Below are positions 32,338 through 41,534 of a stretch of 64,000 nucleotides of DNA, in pieces. The notes beneath the pieces are model-generated. The model had not been told where the DNA came from. It saw nothing but the letters and a program-made list of their open reading frames with translations, and ran no database searches. Source of the DNA: Planctomycetaceae bacterium (GTDB lineage: Bacteria > Planctomycetota > Phycisphaerae > Phycisphaerales > SM1A02). How positions within the stretch are numbered: the first letter of the stretch is position 1; each line of letters opens with the position of its first letter. Location: assembly GCA_947490615.1 (NCBI GenBank), contig CANLHK010000006.1:1-64000 (forward strand), read 5' to 3'. The translations under genes and the position numbers were made by a program.

Positions 32338-33507
32338 TCATGGCGCCGTTGGCGGAAGACTTCGTGCCACAGTGCGAACAATCCACGCGATGACGCCCAG
32401 GCCGATGGCCGCGAAGAGCACAAAGACTGCGAAGCCGCCGCCAAAGGGAACTTCGCGCGGCGCCCCGTCCGTGCCTGAAAGTTGCGCGAGTCGATGCACT
32501 TCGCGCACGACGGTCATGCCTGCCACGACGAGCAGTGATCCAGTGCACGCGGCTGCGACGAGCGCTCGTGGTAAGCGCTGCCGCACGAGGATCACGGTCC
32601 ACGCCCCCGCCGCCACACACGCTCCAAGACACGCGACGATCGCGTAGGGACGCCCCGCGATGCTCGTGGTCGACGCTGCGAACGCATCCGATTTGAACGC
32701 GCAGCCGACGAGACACGCGAGAGAGATCGCCCCGCCCACAAGCGCGAGTCGCGCAAGCGTTCGCGCTGCCGCAGCGCATTCGTTCTCACCAGCGCCGCCT
32801 GCTCCCCGTACGAGTTGCCACGCTGCGATCGCACAGAACAGCGGAAACGCGCCCGCGGTCCACATGCCTAGCCGAAGCCAAAGTAAGGCGCTCCCGAGCA
32901 TGGAGGCGGACGACTCATACATCGATGGCCACGACGACGGCGCAAGCGAGACAAGATGATTCTCTACAAACGCGAGCGTCACATACACCATGAGCGCCGC
33001 GGCGCCCACTCCAACTGCAGCCTTGGTCGCGCGGGTGGTGACGAGATGCTTCGCCTTGAGGAGATACATCAAGTAGATCGCGATGATGAGGACGGGAAGG
33101 ATCGCCATCCAGCGGTTGAAGAGCAGGAGATTGGCGGTGTAAAACGCCTTCTGATAGACGATCTGGATGAAGAGGAGTGGCGCAATGCCCGCGGTGATCG
33201 CCGCCGAAACCGCGCTCGGCAGCCAGTCGCGCACCACCATCGAGAGCGATCCTGTCGAACCCATCGCGCTGCGGCCTGAGTAGCGCCCCGCGACTGCGGC
33301 GGCCGCAACATAGAGCGTTCCTGCGATTGCGTAGTTCATGAAGAGGACATGAACGACGAGGGTCACCATGGCCAGCGCGAGATAGAAGCCTGTTGTCGCG
33401 GGGAGAGTCGAGAGAAACGCGGCGTCGAGAATCGCGGGATCGAGCGCAGTCGCCTCGACAGCGACGAGCGGATCGACCGCGAGGACGATGGAGATCAGCG
33501 CGCTCAT
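32338..33507 (-). CDS. Cytochrome bd-superfamily oxidase, small membrane subunit (CydB-like by position)
   Basis: 389-aa integral membrane protein with about nine hydrophobic helices and few charged residues. Sequence motifs of classical CydB are not obvious, so the call depends on the gene pair. Its ATG overlaps the stop of the upstream large-subunit gene as ATGA, which implies coupled translation and a 1:1 complex. It probably forms the second half of the oxidase in the inner membrane. A distinct, non-CydB membrane subunit is the alternative. Confidence 0.7.
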   Translation of the reverse strand: MSALISIVLAVDPLVAVEATALDPAILDAAFLSTLPATTGFYLALAMVTLVVHVLFMNYAIAGTLYVAAAAVAGRYSGRSAMGSTGSLSMVVRDWLPSAVSAAITAGIAPLLFIQIVYQKAFYTANLLLFNRWMAILPVLIIAIYLMYLLKAKHLVTTRATKAAVGVGAAALMVYVTLAFVENHLVSLAPSSWPSMYESSASMLGSALLWLRLGMWTAGAFPLFCAIAAWQLVRGAGGAGENECAAAARTLARLALVGGAISLACLVGCAFKSDAFAASTTSIAGRPYAIVACLGACVAAGAWTVILVRQRLPRALVAAACTGSLLVVAGMTVVREVHRLAQLSGTDGAPREVPFGGGFAVFVLFAAIGLGVIAWIVRTVARSLPPTAP

Positions 33508-34943
33508 CGTGGCGACTCCGCGCGCTGCGCGAGTTCTTGAGCGCGCGGCGCTGGCGCAGTTCCCGCCTCGTCCAACCAGCGCGCGATCTGTGCGAACACC
33601 GCGGGATCGCGTGACTCTGGCCACCCCGCGCGCCGCTCGGCGTATTCCCACGAGATGTACTGCACCAACGCTTCGAGCTCACTCGGCGTTCCTGCGAAGG
33701 GCGGCATGAATCCCTTGGTCCACTGGAGTTTCGCCACATTGAGCCGCTTCTGCTCGATGCTCCACCCGCCCATCAGTTCGGTCAGCCCGTTGGTCCCCGA
33801 CACCGTGTGACAGATCGCGCACTGGTTGCGGTACACGACTCTTCCGAGCGCAAGTTGCTCAGTCGGAAAGTCCGCTCGGTTGCGCAGCGGATAGGGATCG
33901 TGCGCCGTCACGCCGCTGACTCGCAGCGAGGCGATCTGCGCGGGAGTGGTCGCGTTGGCGAAGAGCGCCTCGCGCACCGTGTAAGGCTTGCGAATGCCCT
34001 CTCGCACAAACTCGCCTCCCGCCGTCGCGCCAAGGGCGAGTGCCGCAAGAAGCGTCGCTGTCGCGCCATTCATTGAGAGCCGCTGCCGCCACAGCCCGAT
34101 GACGGCGTAACCACCGATCAGTGCAGACGCCCCCGCTGCGATGTTCAGGAACATCGTCATCGTCATCGAGCCGCCCATGATCCACGAGCGGCTGTCCGCG
34201 GGAATCACCTCGAGAAACCAACCAGCGAGGAGCGGCATCGAGAGCATCGGAAGAAAGAAGATCGAACATCGATTGATGATCCTGGTGCGCTCGTCTCGCG
34301 TGAATCCAGGCATGGCATTGATGACGATCGCCGCGCCGAGCCCCGCAAGAACGAAGCACGCGACCGTGCGAAAAAGCAAGCTCGGCCAGAAGGTCGGATT
34401 GAAGAAGCCATCCCAGACCGAGTGCGTTTCGGTCCACGCGCCAGGCGTCAACTGCCAGGAGAGAATGCCATTGATCCAGAACAAGCTTCCCCAACCAGCG
34501 ATCGAGTAGATCGCCAGCAGCGCCAGCCGCGCACGCGGAGCGAGGATGTCGCGATAGCGAAAAAACGCGTATCCAGCGGTCATTTCGAGCCAGAAGAAGA
34601 TCCACTCCGTTGCCCAGATCCAGTGAAACTCGTCGACCATGAGCCCGATGGTCTGCGGGGAAACCTGGATCGAAGTCAGCCACATGCCGACGCCCGTGAG
34701 TGCTCCAACGACGAACGAGAGCAAGATCAGCACGCGGAAGACCGACGACACCACCCGATCCGCCAGAGGCTCGCGGCCCGTGAGACCTAACCACTCGAAC
34801 CACCAGATGAGAAATCCGCCGCCGATGGCGAACTGTGCGAGAAAGACATGGAAGATGCCAAGCCCACCGATGACGAGCCCCTTCATCACGGGACCGAAGT
34901 CGTTCACGGGATAGACGGCAGGGATATAGGCGCTGGCGTCCAT
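33504..34943 (-). CDS. Cytochrome bd-superfamily oxidase large subunit with C-terminal heme-c domain
   Basis: 479-aa protein. Residues 1-330 contain about nine membrane helices with CydA-like features: a His in helix 1 (FHVFLAQFAIGGGFLIWWFE, His32) and the DEFHWIWATEWIFFWLEMTA helix (104-122) with acidic residues as in CydA's proton/oxygen channel. The long quinol-binding Q-loop and GRQPW of classical CydA are absent. The C-terminal domain has a heme-c site CAICH (375-379) and a probable axial Met in GFMPPF (413). It therefore looks like a cytochrome-c-linked member of the bd superfamily (OR-C-like), accepting electrons from a c-type carrier and reducing O2. A TACATT element lies 6 nt before the ATG. 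Confidence 0.8.
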   Translation of the reverse strand: MDASAYIPAVYPVNDFGPVMKGLVIGGLGIFHVFLAQFAIGGGFLIWWFEWLGLTGREPLADRVVSSVFRVLILLSFVVGALTGVGMWLTSIQVSPQTIGLMVDEFHWIWATEWIFFWLEMTAGYAFFRYRDILAPRARLALLAIYSIAGWGSLFWINGILSWQLTPGAWTETHSVWDGFFNPTFWPSLLFRTVACFVLAGLGAAIVINAMPGFTRDERTRIINRCSIFFLPMLSMPLLAGWFLEVIPADSRSWIMGGSMTMTMFLNIAAGASALIGGYAVIGLWRQRLSMNGATATLLAALALGATAGGEFVREGIRKPYTVREALFANATTPAQIASLRVSGVTAHDPYPLRNRADFPTEQLALGRVVYRNQCAICHTVSGTNGLTELMGGWSIEQKRLNVAKLQWTKGFMPPFAGTPSELEALVQYISWEYAERRAGWPESRDPAVFAQIARWLDEAGTAPAPRAQELAQRAESPR

Positions 34944-34949
34944 GGGTGA

Positions 34950-34955
34950 AATGTA
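34950..34955 (-). promoter_or_regulatory. -10-like hexamer TACATT, leaderless arrangement
   Basis: Minus strand TACATT ends 6 nt before the ATG of the oxidase large-subunit gene; this supports the start at 34943 rather than a 61-codon longer frame. Confidence 0.45.
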
Positions 34956-35288
34956 ACGACTGCTCGCCGAGAAGCCCTGCTCTCTGATCGCGTGAAGAAT
35001 CGAAGCGAACTGATGGAAATCGATCCATCGATTTCCGATGCGGCTCACCCGATTGCCCCGCGCGCCAGCGCGAAGGTGGACCAACCCCTTGAGCCCGTCG
35101 CTGCGATTGTGGCGGTTCCATGCCATCGGACGGCTGACGGCGTCAGAACTGAACGCTCAGTGCATACGGGCGCGTGGAAGATCGAGTCATTTGACCCTCC
35201 GCCCATCCGCCCAAGCGCGAGTAGCATGAGCCACTGAGTTGGCGGACACCTTTCTTGCCCCCACCTCTTCACTCGAAAGAGACTCCCC
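34956..35288. other. Divergent intergenic region
   Basis: About 330 bases between the oxidase operon and the AhpD-like gene. Overlapping short frames on both strands show no recognisable protein. Apart from the oxidase -10 element I see no distinct structure. Confidence 0.4.
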
Positions 35289-35865: not shown

Positions 35866-36303
35866 ATGATCCGATCCATTCTCCTTAGTGCCCTCGGCTT
35901 CATCCTTGGGCTGATCGTTGGTGGAGCCGTCAACATGGGCATCATCATCGGCGGAGGCGCGCTGCTTCCGCCGCCCGCGGGCGTGGATGTCAACGACATA
36001 GAGAGCATCAACGCGCACATCAAGGAGTACTCCGTCCTTCAGTTGATGGTGCCCTTCTTGGCGCACGCCGTAGGCACTTTTGTTGGTGCACTGCTCGCAT
36101 CGCGCATCGCGCCAAATCGCGCGAAGGTCCCAGCGCTCCTCATTGGCCTCATGTTCCTTGCTGGTGGGACGATGGCGGTCAAGATGATCCCCAACGCGCC
36201 GATGTGGTTCAACACGCTCGACCTCTGCGTGGCGTACCTGCCGATGGCGTGGCTCGGCTACATGCTTGCCAACGCGCGCTCGACGAAGACTTCGCGCACC
36301 TGA
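35866..36303 (+). CDS. Four-helix membrane protein, unknown function
   Basis: 145-aa protein with four hydrophobic helices (IRSILLSALGFILGLIVGGA; YSVLQLMVPFLAHAVGTFVG; VPALLIGLMFLAGGTMAVKM; and the final AYLPMAWLGYMLA). It has a Gly-rich first helix and a conserved-looking MVPFLAHAVGTFVGALLASR segment common in small hypothetical membrane proteins. No function can be assigned. It follows the AhpD-like gene by 55 nt and ends 17 nt from a convergent gene. Confidence 0.8.
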   Translation: MIRSILLSALGFILGLIVGGAVNMGIIIGGGALLPPPAGVDVNDIESINAHIKEYSVLQLMVPFLAHAVGTFVGALLASRIAPNRAKVPALLIGLMFLAGGTMAVKMIPNAPMWFNTLDLCVAYLPMAWLGYMLANARSTKTSRT

Positions 36304-36320
36304 GGAGGATCGACGATGCA

Positions 36321-37571
36321 TCACGCATCGGCGAGGCGCGCGAAGCGGCGATTGCTCGTTGGGAAGTCGACACCCATTGCCACCGCATGGAGAAGCCCGA
36401 TGAGGCACGCGACGAAGGCGATCGTCGCGCACGCGCCGGCGCTGCATCCGACTGCTGACGGCAGCGCGTCGCTTCGGATCGACATGGCGCTCGTGCCAAG
36501 CAACACGCTCGCGACGGCGCACCACTGGTAGAAGCGCAGCCCCGCGATGACGCGGGTTTGTGGTTCTCCACGCAGCGACTCTTCGACGAATCGCGAGAGC
36601 CCCGAGAGCAGCAGATACGCGCCCACGAGAAACGACTGCGGCTGATGAAGCGCAGCGAGCCGCCAAAGCAAGAGCCCAACCGCGATGTTGGACAGGATCG
36701 AATAGACGGGCGTCGCGTGCACGGCGACATCACGCAATCCCGCAACCACCACAACGCGCGATCGCGGATGTCTGTAGCGAATCCCATGCGTGCAACCATC
36801 GACGGCGCGTCCATGGCAGCAACCCTGCACCAAGCAGCGCAGGCGACCGATCGATTGAATCCATGGCGCTGCGAGTGCGAGCGTTGCTGCAAGAAGCCAA
36901 CCGTTGAACTGCGCTGGCCAGAGCACGGCAAGGAGTGGAATCGCCGCAGCGAGAGCCACGATGCTGCCGAAGTACCCAAACGGTCGCAGCAGTTTCGACG
37001 ATCCAGTCCAATACTGTCCCCACGCGCACGCGCCGATGAGTGAGAGCACGGCAAGAAGCGCGACGGCATACGCGCCCTCCACGCCAAGACGCCATCCCGC
37101 GATCGCGATCCCAAGCGCAGCGGCGACTCCAGGAAAGACTGCGTGACTCAACACGCGCGCGGGCCCCACGCGCCACTCGCGCCATGAGTTGGCGATTCGC
37201 TCGGCGTGCGTCAGAACGAATCGCCATGTCGTGGCGCGCAGGCCAGCAGCCCCAGCGAGTGCCGCGCCCGTCACGACATCAAGCGTCGAATGCATGCCTG
37301 TCGTGATGCACGAAAGCGCGATGAGCAGCCCGATGAACGACGCGAGGATTCCGACGATCGCGGTGCGTTGCCACGCAGCGCGCGCGGCCATGATCACCCA
37401 GAACACATGGAACGACGGCAGCGAGGCGCGACCTTCCATGCCATCACTTCGCTCGAGTTCGAGGAGCCACGCAAATGGCGCGTTCGCGTCAAACGGCCGC
37501 GGCTCGAACACTGCGGGGATCACAAGGTAGGCAAGCAAGCCAAGCACGATTCCAAAACGCGCATCGAGCAC
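36321..37571 (-). CDS. PAP2-like phosphatase domain fused to Lgt-like transferase domain (downstream half of a TGA-split frame)
   Basis: 416-aa multi-helix membrane protein. N-terminal part has PAP2 motifs in order: EPRPFD, LPSFHV (His55) and TGMHSTLDVV (His94, Asp98), the catalytic set of lipid phosphatases/transferases. The C-terminal part resembles prolipoprotein diacylglyceryl transferase: IGRLRCLVQGCCHG (241-254), HATPVYSIL (285-293) and LSRFVEESLRGE (325-336). The first codon is a GTG that directly follows a TGA in the same frame, so this is continuous with the upstream gene except for that stop. It may be a separate cistron made by reinitiation, a readthrough product, or half of a broken gene. 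Alternative functions include lipid head-group transfer. Confidence 0.75.
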   Translation of the reverse strand: MLDARFGIVLGLLAYLVIPAVFEPRPFDANAPFAWLLELERSDGMEGRASLPSFHVFWVIMAARAAWQRTAIVGILASFIGLLIALSCITTGMHSTLDVVTGAALAGAAGLRATTWRFVLTHAERIANSWREWRVGPARVLSHAVFPGVAAALGIAIAGWRLGVEGAYAVALLAVLSLIGACAWGQYWTGSSKLLRPFGYFGSIVALAAAIPLLAVLWPAQFNGWLLAATLALAAPWIQSIGRLRCLVQGCCHGRAVDGCTHGIRYRHPRSRVVVVAGLRDVAVHATPVYSILSNIAVGLLLWRLAALHQPQSFLVGAYLLLSGLSRFVEESLRGEPQTRVIAGLRFYQWCAVASVLLGTSAMSIRSDALPSAVGCSAGACATIAFVACLIGLLHAVAMGVDFPTSNRRFARLADA

Positions 37572-38276
37572 TCAAGTCCGCATCGCGCGCTTCTGCGCAA
37601 ACGCCAACGGCGCGAGAAACACCATGAGGTACGCCAGCGAGTAAATCGGCGTCGTCTCTGGGTAGGTCGGCCACGCGCTCTCACTGGGCGTGAAGTTCAC
37701 GGCATCAGGCACTGGCAGATGGCCCACCGCTTCATAGAGCAAGAGAAACGGCGCGAAGAGTCCAATCCAGACGCTCGCACGATCGCGCCACGATGGTGGT
37801 GCTTCGCTTCTATCTGGAAGTCGGAGAAGCGCGCCACCAGGAACGCTGCCAAACCGCCGCACCAAATCCGCGCGTTCGTAGCCGAGCACAAGCGCCACAC
37901 AGGCCAACGCGAGTGTCGGCGCCACGATTCGAACTCCTGCAGCGGAGCCCGTCGCCAACGCGACACCGAAGGCGATCATCACAGCGCCGAAGTAGATCGG
38001 ATGCGCAAACATCGCGTACGGCCCGCGATCGACGGCCATCGGCGGCGGAAACGCGTTCATCGGAAGTCCACCGCCCTGCACCCGCAGTGCGAGCATGGAC
38101 CACAACACGAGAACGCATCCAGCCGCAGCGACCCACCAACCGATCGCGTGCTCCTCCATCGACGGCAGAAGCAATACGATGTTGAGTTGGCGCGCCCACC
38201 ACACCAAGAGCGCAGGCAACGCGAGACAGAACAACGATCCATAGGCGAACCGCGCCGCCACGCTAGACACCGTCAT
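37572..38276 (-). CDS. ICMT/PEMT-like membrane methyltransferase (upstream half of a TGA-split frame)
   Basis: 234-aa membrane protein. It has the isoprenylcysteine-carboxyl-methyltransferase/PEMT signature VDRGPYAMFAHPIYFGAVMI (83-102), preceded by two or three helices and followed by more, the last two of which (SVWIGLFAPFLLLYEAVGH; PIYSLAYLMVFLAPLAFAQ) look like the first helices of a PAP2-type domain. The frame stops at TGA (37574-37572) and continues without interruption in the next gene. Its ATG overlaps the upstream gene's stop as ATGA, so it is part of an operon. Confidence 0.75.
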   Translation of the reverse strand: MTVSSVAARFAYGSLFCLALPALLVWWARQLNIVLLLPSMEEHAIGWWVAAAGCVLVLWSMLALRVQGGGLPMNAFPPPMAVDRGPYAMFAHPIYFGAVMIAFGVALATGSAAGVRIVAPTLALACVALVLGYERADLVRRFGSVPGGALLRLPDRSEAPPSWRDRASVWIGLFAPFLLLYEAVGHLPVPDAVNFTPSESAWPTYPETTPIYSLAYLMVFLAPLAFAQKRAMRT

Positions 38277-39145
38277 GCGCCGCTCCGTTGAAACCGCACC
38301 GCCTCGTGCACGGCCGTTCCTACGCGTGGTGCCCCTGCTTCTTGTTCCATGCGCCCGTTGGCGAGCCACTTTTTCTCGTGTGAGAGAAGGTACTGCGCCG
38401 GCAGAAACGGCAACGCGCGCGCGACCGTCGCCACTGGTCCCGTCGCAAACGGCGCGTCGCGCAGTGTGCGCACAGGCTCAAGCGAAAGCCCGCCACCATG
38501 CCAGAGCACCTCGCGATCGGTGACGCAGGGCGCTTCGGCTCTCACGCCGTCGACGAGCACCAACTGCCGTGTCGGCTGTTCATCGCGTCCCTCGCACCAG
38601 GAGATCCAGACCACGCTTGCGTCGGCGTCGATGAAGCGCCCCCAACGCAAGAGGTCGATCGGAAGCTTCCACGGTTCGATCGTCATGACCAATCGCTCGG
38701 CGTATCCGCGACCAGAAATCTTGCGCTCGCCGACCGTGATCGACGCATCGGTCGCGGGCGCGAGACAGGTCCAGTGCACCGCACCCTCGTCGCTGTTGAG
38801 GAGCGTCGCGGCGATGGGCGAGATTCCAGCCGTCGACCAACGACCGCTCGCGCCCAAGGCAGGAGCGTCGAACGACACTCCCGATTCGTCGGTGTGCCAC
38901 GCGCGTGCACCAAGAGAAGTCTGGGTCGCTACCGCGCCGTCAACTGGTGCAACCAACACCGACGATGCCGAGAGACGCAACGGCCCCCATCGAAGATCAA
39001 TCGCGTAGGCGATGCACACATCACCGCTCGGAGAAACCACATCGAGATACACCTTGTCGATCAACGGCGACGCGAGTCCGCCACCCGATAAGGAGAACTG
39101 ATCGGGCGGGTCCATCTTCCACATCGGATGATTGCTCAATGACAT
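38273..39145 (-). CDS. Hypothetical protein, beta-rich, first gene of the lipid-enzyme operon
   Basis: 290-aa protein without a signal peptide, rich in beta-strand patterns (DVCIAYAIDLRWGPLRLSA; GRGYAERLVMTIEPWKLPID; VWISWCEGRD). The overall pattern reminds me of the CrtC/AttH hydroxyneurosporene-synthase-like lipocalin fold, which binds or modifies hydrophobic molecules; this is a hunch without a diagnostic motif. Its stop overlaps the methyltransferase start (ATGA), tying it to lipid enzymes downstream. Start choice is uncertain: 39145 (MSLSNHP) is preferred over a TTG at 39202; a shorter start at 39124 is possible. Confidence 0.65.
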   Translation of the reverse strand: MSLSNHPMWKMDPPDQFSLSGGGLASPLIDKVYLDVVSPSGDVCIAYAIDLRWGPLRLSASSVLVAPVDGAVATQTSLGARAWHTDESGVSFDAPALGASGRWSTAGISPIAATLLNSDEGAVHWTCLAPATDASITVGERKISGRGYAERLVMTIEPWKLPIDLLRWGRFIDADASVVWISWCEGRDEQPTRQLVLVDGVRAEAPCVTDREVLWHGGGLSLEPVRTLRDAPFATGPVATVARALPFLPAQYLLSHEKKWLANGRMEQEAGAPRVGTAVHEAVRFQRSGA

Positions 39146-39293
39146 GCGGTGCCGCCTCGCAGTGCTGGCTCCGAGCGTACGCCTTTGTCGGCCAGTTGCC
39201 AACGGCTCGCCATCCCTGTTGTGGGTTCCAACTTCTCAGAAGCGTTCCTTCGTTCAACGACGACCCGTTGCATCAATCGCGGACTCCAACACC

Positions 39294-39456
39294 GTGATAC
39301 GATTCGCGCTGCGACGGACTCTCGCGGTCCGACCAAGAGCCACCTCCTTTCAAGGGAACCCATGATGGAGAGGAATCTTCGATGAGGAGGAACCCTGGGT
39401 TTTGCCTGGCGATCGGCCTGATCGCCACCTGCACGGCATTCGTTGTCGCGCAGGAG
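39294..39456 (+). repeat. Duplicated 5' cassette, copy 1 (promoter, leader, signal peptide)
   Basis: The sequence from GTGATACGAT through the leader to the codons ending at the signal peptide's AQE recurs about 1.37 kb downstream with scattered substitutions and a short insertion before the start codon. TACGAT (39298-39303) could be the -10 of the gene it serves. Confidence 0.75.
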
Positions 39457-40671
39457 CCCAAGCCCGACCAGCCATCGGTCCACCGACCGGTCTCGTCGGC
39501 GTTCGCGCCCGCCCACCTTGGGAGCACCGACCCAGTCGCGGTGGTCGATGGCACCCTCGACATCGAACTCCTCACCGCTGGACCACTCACTGGGCTTGTT
39601 GAGTTCAAAGACTCACTCACTCGGATCGAGCTCGCGGCACTCCTCCATCAGAGCATCGCGCCAGACCACCTCAAGCAGGCAATCTGGACCTGCGCGCGGG
39701 GTGCCTGGCCGGAGTTCGTTGAGTCCATGAATTCGCGGCGGGTCGCGTGGCGCGATGCGATCATTGGCTCTTCCCGCTCGTGCGCACAAGCACAGTTCGA
39801 TGGCATTGTGGACGACGATCGACTCGCGGCACGGCATGCCGGGTTGGTCATCCGTCTTCAGGCGGAGCGCGCTGCGCTCGAGGAACGCTTCCTACTGCAA
39901 CTTGCGACCTGCGCCGAGGAAGCAACCTTCGCAGATCCTGCCGCTGGTGAAGATTCTCGACGCGCGGGTGCGATTCCACTCGGAATCCTTGCGCCATTGC
40001 ACGAGCGCGCGCGCCTACGCAATGCGGAAGTCCGAGTGCTTCGCTACTCCACGAGGTGGAGCTCATTGGACCTTCGAAGCCTGTGCGCGCGCTGTGAGTT
40101 CCCTCTGGACGACAGCTTCGCGATTGAAGAGCCACTTGCGAGCTTCGAAGGCACCCGAACTGCGCTGGCACTCTCGCGCTTTCGGGCGTCACAACAAGCG
40201 CTTGCCCGCACCGGGGTCAAGGCGCAACCTTACTGGAGAACCGTTGCGTCTCGTGAGCGACAGCTGCGTGGGGAGACGCGACGCGCGCTCCATGCACTCT
40301 GCGCGCGGATCACGCCGACGAGCGAAGATCGACTCTTTGTGGCTGCTGCTGGTGGGGCTTATCCCGAGATCGCCGTCGCGCTGGCAACGCTCTACCAGCT
40401 GCACGCGCCATCCTCCACGGATGAGGCCGAACGAGCTTGGCGCGCCGAGCGGCGTGCGATCGTGGAGCTCGTGCTCGGAGAACTCGACCGCTTCACCGAA
40501 GGCGAGAGCGTCGGCGCCGCTACCCAAGACCAAACCGCGGAATGGGCCGCGGTCGTCCAGCGTTCCGTCGCGCGGTTCGAGGCAGCTGTTCCTTCTCAAC
40601 CCGCAGCGGCAGGGATCATTCCCTCATTCGACAAGGACCCGCCGCTCCCATCACCGACATCAGAGCCGTGA
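39382..40671 (+). CDS. Secreted helical protein of unknown function
   Basis: 429-aa protein with a signal peptide (NPGFCLAIGLIATCTAFVVA, cleavage before QE). The mature part is mostly helical with several Cys (in CARGAWPEF, RSLCARCEFP, HALCARITP) and many Arg/Glu; no family is recognised. The first 25 residues are 20/25 identical to those of the next gene, while the mature parts are unrelated. The stop TGA lies within the promoter cassette of the next gene. It is probably periplasmic. Confidence 0.75.
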   Translation: MRRNPGFCLAIGLIATCTAFVVAQEPKPDQPSVHRPVSSAFAPAHLGSTDPVAVVDGTLDIELLTAGPLTGLVEFKDSLTRIELAALLHQSIAPDHLKQAIWTCARGAWPEFVESMNSRRVAWRDAIIGSSRSCAQAQFDGIVDDDRLAARHAGLVIRLQAERAALEERFLLQLATCAEEATFADPAAGEDSRRAGAIPLGILAPLHERARLRNAEVRVLRYSTRWSSLDLRSLCARCEFPLDDSFAIEEPLASFEGTRTALALSRFRASQQALARTGVKAQPYWRTVASRERQLRGETRRALHALCARITPTSEDRLFVAAAGGAYPEIAVALATLYQLHAPSSTDEAERAWRAERRAIVELVLGELDRFTEGESVGAATQDQTAEWAAVVQRSVARFEAAVPSQPAAAGIIPSFDKDPPLPSPTSEP

Positions 40672-40814
40672 TACGATCCGCGCCGCGTCGGACCACTCGC
40701 AGTCCGAACAGGAACCTCCTTCTTTCAAGGGACACCACGATGAAGACGAACCCTGGGATTTGCCTCGCGATCGGCGTGATCGCCACCTGCACCGCACTCG
40801 TTGTCGCGCAGGAG
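40668..40814 (+). repeat. Duplicated 5' cassette, copy 2
   Basis: Second copy of the promoter/leader/signal-peptide block, beginning at the stop codon of the preceding gene (GTGATACGATCC) and ending at the signal peptide's AQE codons. The duplicated DNA covers non-coding and coding parts alike, so it arose by DNA duplication, not convergence. Confidence 0.75.
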
Positions 40815-41534
40815 ACCAAGAAGACGCCCACCAACAACAAACCCGCTGTGCAGAACACGCCGACGGTGACGCCGCCGAAGGCCCCACCGACAACCAACAC
40901 GAACACCGCCACGCCACCCAAGCACGACGCGCCTGGCGCCAACGCGCTCCCTCCTGGCATGACCGAAGCGGACATGCAGGCGATGATGGCTGCGGCAACA
41001 CCCGGTCCGATGCAAGCGTGGCTCTGCGAAGATGCTGGCACTTGGAAGGGCGCGTGCATGATGTGGATGGCGCCAGGAGTTGAGGCGACCAAGAGTGAGT
41101 CGACCTACACCGTCACACCGATCCTTGGTGGACGCTTCATCCAACAGCACGCGTCGGGCGACATGGGCGAGTGGGGTCCATTCGAAGGCTTTGGCATGGT
41201 CGGCTTCGACAACGCCAAGGGTGAGTTCCAAGCAAGCTGGGGAGACACCATGGGCACCGCCATGATGTGCGGCACGGGAAGTCTCAACTCCGACAACAAA
41301 GAACTGACCATCAACTTCTCCTACTTCTGCCCGATGCAGAAGAAGACCTGCGCCTTCAAGCAGACCATCACGCGAAACACCAACGGCACCCGCACCATGC
41401 GGATGTTCGGCGATGCGCCCGGAACTGGTGAGCACTTCAAGATGATGGAGACGACCTACACGCTCGTCCACGCGCAAGCCAAGCACAACGAGACCACGAA
41501 GAACAACAGCAAACACGCGGTTGTTCCGAACTAA
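40740..41534 (+). CDS. Secreted DUF1579 family protein
   Basis: 264-aa protein. Signal peptide (NPGICLAIGVIATCTALVVA), a ~55-residue Thr/Pro/Asn-rich linker, then a DUF1579 domain: LCEDAGTWKGACMMWM, the repeated ILGGRFIQQHASGDM and FEGFGMVGFDNAKGEFQASW, the TGSLNSDNKELTI strand. DUF1579 is a lipocalin-like beta-barrel of unknown ligand, frequent in planctomycete exported proteins. AAGGGA about 9 nt upstream can act as Shine-Dalgarno. A strong terminator follows. Confidence 0.9.
   Translation: MKTNPGICLAIGVIATCTALVVAQETKKTPTNNKPAVQNTPTVTPPKAPPTTNTNTATPPKHDAPGANALPPGMTEADMQAMMAAATPGPMQAWLCEDAGTWKGACMMWMAPGVEATKSESTYTVTPILGGRFIQQHASGDMGEWGPFEGFGMVGFDNAKGEFQASWGDTMGTAMMCGTGSLNSDNKELTINFSYFCPMQKKTCAFKQTITRNTNGTRTMRMFGDAPGTGEHFKMMETTYTLVHAQAKHNETTKNNSKHAVVPN

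Follow-up and report, generated by a model that had tools for sequence, protein, structure and literature searches.

Membrane lipid modification draws on several well-described protein groups that recur, in combined form, at the locus considered here. Methyltransferases of the PEMT/ICMT type use cytoplasmic AdoMet, and the active sites of PAP2 and LGT proteins normally face outside. For Escherichia coli Lgt, one report states that the H103A/N/Q/R/Y substitutions fail to complement and that E151A/Q are inactive (PMC4728403), and another states that Asn146Ala is inactive (PMC8689077). CrtC is placed with AttH and the Diels-Alderases in one fold group by two papers (PMC2954199, PMC4717167), the second of which names His239, Trp241, Tyr266 and Asp268 as its catalytic residues (PMC4717167).

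The window analyzed here, a 64,000-nucleotide stretch from a Planctomycetaceae bacterium, carries two adjoining minus-strand genes, termed A and B, that touch on all of these groups: gene A codes for a protein with a predicted AttH/CrtC/Diels-Alderase fold, and gene B for a fusion of methyltransferase, PAP2 and LGT-like domains. The literature searched, at the level of titles and the opening lines of abstracts, contained no description of the fusion protein or of gene A, and the portion of PMC12419801 that is available does not describe the gene B protein. In the window, gene B is interrupted by an in-frame TGA. Our reading, to which we assign a probability of about two in three, is that the window carries an A-B unit in which a private nonsense change from TGG to TGA, midway through the PAP2 domain, makes a full enzyme unexpected, and that the intact pair likely serves lipid tailoring.

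One gene in two pieces

Gene B runs on the minus strand from an ATG at 38276 to a terminal TGA at 36321, a span of 651 codons plus the stop. Its sole internal stop is the TGA at 37574-37572, codon 235, and the codon directly 3' of it is GTG (37571-37569). The first piece (37575-38276, 234 codons) carries the PEMT/ICMT-type methyltransferase domain and the first PAP2 helices, and is homologous to the part of L024, the nearest relative, that precedes W230. The second (36321-37571), a 416-aa ORF whose first codon is the GTG, carries the catalytic PAP2 part and the LGT-like domain. ORF1 (to 37572) and ORF2 share one frame, and the description in the earlier note of a continuous frame broken only by this TGA and then resuming at GTG is correct, coordinates included. 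Both halves align collinearly and over their full length with single proteins of relatives, so that their lying in one frame is not a matter of chance. A promoter scan of 36200-39400 found no promoter-like site, and terminator-like sites in the same interval numbered six against an expectation of 3.7 (sd 2.2).

The relatives establish that the gene is normally uninterrupted. The second half of gene B, used as query against 61 genomes (60 relatives plus the window's own), recovered from G026, G030 and G034 open frames of 642-662 aa with zero stops, and each of these single ORFs aligns end to end with both window pieces. A profile scan of 84,980 species, one genome per species, with an alignment of gene B sequences from the window and the relatives found earlier as query, then confirmed 160 loci. 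The best 80 of them were retained, and L020 among these is the G026 copy. Addition of G030 and G034 to these 80 gave the 82 relatives compared below. None of the best 80 of the 160 loci has a stop within its match, and while some of these matches start only at query residues 44-66, every one spans the TGA site. The frame is open across that site in 82 of 82 compared relatives. At a Pfam threshold of E 0.01, the 54 members scanned matched PEMT in 54 cases, LGT in 54 and PAP2_3 in 53. Relatives thus do have the single protein of roughly 650 aa that the earlier note had proposed to look for, at about 640 aa; its alternative of two coupled cistrons fails, as no compared relative (best 80 of 160 loci plus G030 and G034) has two genes. 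Weighing the other way, the 61-genome search returned a weak, partial match to the LGT region (G048:C60:15221-15721, locus L005, E 2.8e-6) in a genome from another family of the same order; this stretch contains a single internal TGA, and its open frame is 299 aa long.

Three domains and their conserved residues

The methyltransferase is recognized in the first piece by a PEMT (PF04191) match of 39.2 bits against a cut-off of 25, which covers residues 43-142 (37851-38150, minus strand) and includes an HPIYxG stretch and a conserved E134. The ICMT score of the window sequence, 17.4 bits, falls below its cut-off of 24, ICMT gives a weak match in 31 of the 54 members, and the PEMT score of L024 itself (23.5) lies below 25. 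Among the 82 relatives, P93, Y95 and E134 are invariant, G97 is kept in 81 and H92 in 73; we take these HP..Y.G and Glu residues to fill the role of the PEMT/ICMT motif. The domain shares with PEMT/ICMT enzymes the PEMT profile, HPIYxG and the fixed Glu, but differs from them in being fused to other domains and in a family-conserved GGGLPMNAFPP stretch. The structure comparison of the whole L024 model listed no fold match for the methyltransferase part.

The PAP2_3 (AUR1/sphingomyelin-synthase-like) domain, which the TGA cuts, occupies residues ~151-345 (37242-37826, minus strand), with approximate limits taken from the AlphaFold model of L024 (pLDDT 93.2, pTM 0.93). In the window the second piece scores 41 bits against the PAP2_3 cut-off of 27. 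Residues ~147-345 of gene B, as modeled in L024, match the PAP2 structures 9vj4 (Z 13.1), 9ivc (12.3), 6ebu (12.2) and 8ijq (11.2); Z values below about 13 can arise by chance among helical proteins, and the PAP2 call rests also on Pfam. H290, H329 and D333, conserved in 80, 81 and 81 of the 82 relatives and presumably the catalytic His, His and Asp of the PAP2 motif, all lie 3' of the TGA. The residue equivalent to the TGA is W230 of L024, within helix 224-247 of the PAP2 part and ahead of the catalytic His residues. The placing of the stop amid the helices of a single PAP2 domain, proposed in the earlier note, is therefore borne out, in the L024 model rather than in the window protein. With AUR1/inositol phosphorylceramide synthase, the sphingomyelin-synthase-related enzymes and LpxE, this domain shares the fold and the His, His, Asp set; unlike theirs, it sits between a methyltransferase and an LGT-like domain.

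The LGT-like domain (residues ~356-595; 36492-37211, minus strand, limits approximate) contains RPFGYFG and GRLRCLVQGCCHG. It scores 58.7 bits against the LGT (PF01790) cut-off of 24.9, and residues 350-597 of L024 superpose on E. coli Lgt (5azb) with Z 15.6 and an rmsd of 3.9 over 231 aligned residues. Lgt is also the top Foldseek match of the gene B model, at E 1.1e-3, with none at 0.001 or better. Sequence searches of the PDB gave no match for the gene B profile (E 0.01) and two irrelevant ones for the C-terminal part of L024 alone. Both NCBIfam Lgt equivalog cut-offs were missed by a wide distance (44.4 vs 334 bits; 14.1 vs 118.9). The residues tell the same story. At the column of the HGGL His (436), Tyr occurs in 58 relatives, Phe in 23 and His in one of 82, with Phe in the window; the alignment there is uncertain by 1-2 residues, and six of 82 carry a His at some position within columns 428-440. 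The columns of Lgt Asn146 and Glu151 (481 and 486) hold Cys in all 82 relatives. R478, which corresponds to the signature Arg143, and R562, which we take to be Lgt Arg239 from its place in the RF...E block, are each invariant (82/82).

The domain thus has the Lgt fold, the GR...G signature frame, the RF.EE...E block and the arginines in common with Lgt (5azb, PF01790), but lacks the His, Asn and Glu and is fused to two other domains. Given these losses on an Lgt fold, it should not be called Lgt, and its conserved residues suggest that its substrate is probably not a lipoprotein cysteine. A canonical Lgt is encoded elsewhere in the genome (177.4 bits), with SHGG, GRLANWINGE, and N and E at the signature columns. 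The names PEMT, PAP2 and LGT in the earlier note consequently hold at the superfamily level; LGT as a true Lgt is contradicted by residues and scores, and ICMT stays below its cut-off. The window genome also contains a third LGT-family protein (L007; G000:C9:100241-100903, minus strand; open frame of 261 aa), which lacks the HGGL His and has GRFGCIAAGCCQG, resembling the LGT-like domain of gene B.

The upstream partner

Gene A (38273-39145, minus strand; the start at 39145 is assumed and uncertain) codes for a partner protein of ~290 aa, and its stop overlaps the gene B start in the sequence ATGA. In 80 of 83 loci, a set made up of the best 80 of 160 together with the window, G030 and G034, gene B is directly preceded by a same-strand gene of ~265 aa, a neighbor that the earlier note does not mention. 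This upstream gene stops no more than 25 bases from where the gene B match begins in 60 of 80 loci, and the spacing, measured to the match start and not to a proven start codon, ranges from an 8-base overlap to a 356-base gap. The three loci without a gene A call are L048 and L074, which have almost no upstream DNA, and L046; the last 28 residues of gene A are visible in L048. At L046, upstream of 7965, gene A appears as weak pieces beside an open gene B and is possibly broken or diverged. The next recurrent neighbor cluster comprises 19 opposite-strand ORFs from 16 loci; it overlies the usual gene A position and is probably a shadow frame of gene A, and no neighbor besides gene A recurs on a comparable scale in the 83 loci. 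The two genes co-occur in the same four of 61 genomes, the partial G048 match set aside. Their pairwise distances correlate at r = 0.85 over 80 loci, compared with no more than 0.12 in 999 permutations, a correlation to which shared species history contributes.

Pfam assigned no family to window gene A. Across 60 gene A members it gave no consistent family, only three unrelated single matches at E 0.1. A weak CrtC match was seen in two of the 60, and a PDB sequence search with the gene A profile (E 1) was without a match. The fold became apparent from structure prediction: the model of window gene A (pLDDT 92.1) matches the pericyclases/Diels-Alderases Fsa2, CghA and Phm7, the AttH-like protein NE1406, a 25-phosphosteroid lyase and kievitone hydratase with Z 17.3-21.7 in rows 1 to 14, the next match falling to 8.1. 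The model matches the AttH/Diels-Alderase group across nearly its whole length, but identity in these structure matches is only 7-13% and gene A is roughly 80-110 residues shorter than the Diels-Alderases. Some enzymes of the AttH/CrtC/Diels-Alderase fold group, a double lipocalin-like one, have lipophilic substrates; the modeled fold by itself does not give the reaction. No obvious signal peptide was seen by eye in the gene A rows inspected, and the product is probably cytoplasmic, to judge from its sequence.

Distribution of the family

Gene B is rare near the window organism and scattered far beyond it. It is carried by seven of 181 genomes in the family survey, the window's included and with a stop in the window copy alone, by a single genome, the window's, among the 16 of its genus, and by three of 392 in a sample of the phylum that again counts the window's. 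The best 80 of the 160 loci span Acidobacteriota, Planctomycetota, Bacteroidota, Ignavibacteriota, Verrucomicrobiota, Gemmatimonadota, Myxococcota, Pseudomonadota, Zixibacteria and Calditrichota, a list that we count as at least nine phyla because Ignavibacteriota are sometimes merged with Bacteroidota. Named carriers are Minicystis rosea DSM 24000, Paenimyroides tangerinum YIM 102701-2 and Actibacterium atlanticum 22II-S11-z10. In P. tangerinum the A-B unit is present on two scaffolds (L091, L093) with equal match position and identity, as a duplication or an assembly repeat. A plasmid search at E 1e-20 gave no gene B match, and 60 pattern matches in viral contigs contained no relative. In five same-genus genomes, with one region taken from each, a single one of ten window genes was found, a carboxymuconolactone-decarboxylase gene; local gene order is thus not conserved in those regions, and they do not show an empty site.

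Two other features of the window drew attention. The 540-aa ORF at 33504-35126 (minus strand) carries a cytochrome c domain (PF13442) at its C-terminus and, judged by eye, many apparent membrane helices; Pfam gave nothing at E 1 for the N-terminal part, which may be an unrecognized oxidase subunit. A membrane-like ORF at 32338-33651 overlaps the end of this frame. On the other side of the A-B unit, the plus-strand genes at 39382-40671 and ~40740-41534 begin with near-identical signal-like leaders, MRRNPGFCLAIGLIATCTAFVVAQE and MKTNPGICLAIGVIATCTALVVAQE, and then differ in appearance.

Origin of the internal stop

What the TGA replaces can be read from the tree. The 82 compared relatives (best 80 of 160 loci plus two) have Phe at this column in 65 cases, Leu in 11, Trp in three, Tyr in two and Met in one. 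An early four-sequence alignment had Phe in its three relatives, and Trp in the nearest two emerged only in the wider set. By identity to window gene B, the nearest among the loci compared are L024 (59.4%) and L025 (50.9%); the window groups with L024 at an SH-aLRT support of 99, and the clade that adds L025 has 98. Both relatives have TGG at the site. With this clade and TGG in both of its other members, the parsimonious history is a Trp codon converted to TGA by one transition.

Gene B has otherwise kept the appearance of a maintained gene. The window departs from consensus at two of 81 columns that are at least 95% conserved, other rows at 0 to 9, and identity to L024 is 59.4% both before and after the TGA. 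Differences from L024 at the three codon positions are 0.30/0.23/0.52 before the TGA and 0.33/0.23/0.58 after it, highest at third positions in each case; G+C by codon position is similar on the two sides, and the terminal branches are 0.47 for the window and 0.39 for L024. As no decay is seen elsewhere in the frame, the change would be recent. The undecayed remainder, as judged from sequence comparison, fits a recent mutation or an artefact. It fits a functional split or a readthrough gene equally well and cannot separate these readings.

Recoding was considered and rejected. TGA terminates gene A and also gene B, the latter at its conserved C-terminus, and the genome has prfB (RF2), with a score of 370.6 bits just above the cut-off of 370; on these grounds a non-standard genetic code is not supported. 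A tRNA-Sec model gave twelve matches in the window's own genome, all below cut-off, and the eight best are ordinary tRNAs (three tRNA-Ser, and one each for Arg, Cys, Leu, Tyr and Asp). In a control, the model matched in 14 of 14 known genomes, above cut-off in five and below it in nine, and as all 14 gave matches, those below cut-off mean little. None of the 82 compared relatives has Cys at the TGA column. Selenocysteine or suppressor reading of the TGA was rejected on the lack of a tRNA-Sec above cut-off and the ordinary nature of the eight matches checked.

There remains the decoding of the TGA, regulated or basal, as Trp or another residue to yield a little full-length protein. UGA is known to be read by tRNA-Trp as a near-cognate codon, Trp is the residue at the site in the nearest relatives, and the undecayed frame would suit such an arrangement. 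We nevertheless consider it very improbable, because no stop occurs in the 82 compared relatives (best 80 of 160 loci plus two), RF2 is present, no tRNA-Sec passes its cut-off and the relatives are without Cys at the column. Readthrough as a feature of the system, raised in the earlier note, is opposed by the same observations.

A GTG directly after the TGA makes reinitiation possible, and translation might stop at the one and restart at the other, the two chains then rebuilding a PAP2 domain. ORF2 is wholly open and its sequence conserved, as a working split would have it. However, zero of 82 compared relatives (best 80 of 160 loci plus G030 and G034) are split, and the codon after the site is ATG in L024, CGA in L025, and GCC, GCG and GTA in three others. 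With so varied a codon in five relatives, an internal start is not conserved. No clear Shine-Dalgarno stretch is seen by eye 5' of the GTG, and the cut falls inside a helix ahead of the catalytic residues. A functional split is accordingly an improbable explanation.

The TGA could also be an assembly, consensus or strain-mixture error, in which case a single unbroken gene would be present in the living organism. The codon is one base away from the TGG (Trp) that the nearest relatives have, no other damage is found anywhere in the gene B frame, and the comparison set contains one genome per species, with only the window's own among the 16 of its genus carrying gene B. Against this, the assembly is contiguous, with 28 contigs and 96.88% completeness, nothing tested points to a sequence error, and single-base substitution errors are rare in contiguous assemblies. 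We regard an artefact as unlikely. The likeliest readings of the interruption are a private nonsense change and an error or strain variant that mimics one, and a nonsense mutation, one of the options in the earlier note, is the best reading; we infer that the TGA is a real translation stop in window gene B. On this reading TGG became TGA in mid-PAP2 domain, and the full gene B enzyme is not expected in the window organism.

A putative lipid-tailoring pair

The intact A-B pair is likely, by inference, to act in lipid tailoring, its two products together building one modified lipid. The gene A product would alter a lipophilic precursor, which the gene B methyltransferase, acting with it, would methylate at the cytoplasmic face. 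At the outer face, the PAP2 domain would hydrolyze or exchange a phosphate head group, and the LGT-like domain would join the lipid with a phosphatidylglycerol-derived group, its acceptor being different from the lipoprotein cysteine. The window organism would have lost this activity, or would retain it only by way of reinitiation or readthrough. It is enticing to speculate further that the A-B unit specifies a lipid-tailoring pathway, not described in the papers searched, that is present in at least nine bacterial phyla and in which a repurposed LGT-like domain moves a diacylglyceryl or similar group to a non-protein acceptor; we advance this tentatively, as somewhat less than an even wager.

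The stop codon is in itself ordinary. The intact family matters more, for it unites three membrane lipid enzymes in one protein and has the same partner gene beside gene B at almost all of the loci examined, in phyla that range from Planctomycetota to Bacteroidota and Pseudomonadota. As its catalytic residues argue against Lgt, names drawn from public profile matches would mislead. That three named strains carry the A-B unit opens its function to experiment. If the proposal is true, an AttH/CrtC-fold enzyme is paired with a transmembrane three-enzyme protein that couples methylation to a head-group change on the same chain, and the A-B product would be a membrane lipid that has yet to be assigned to genes.
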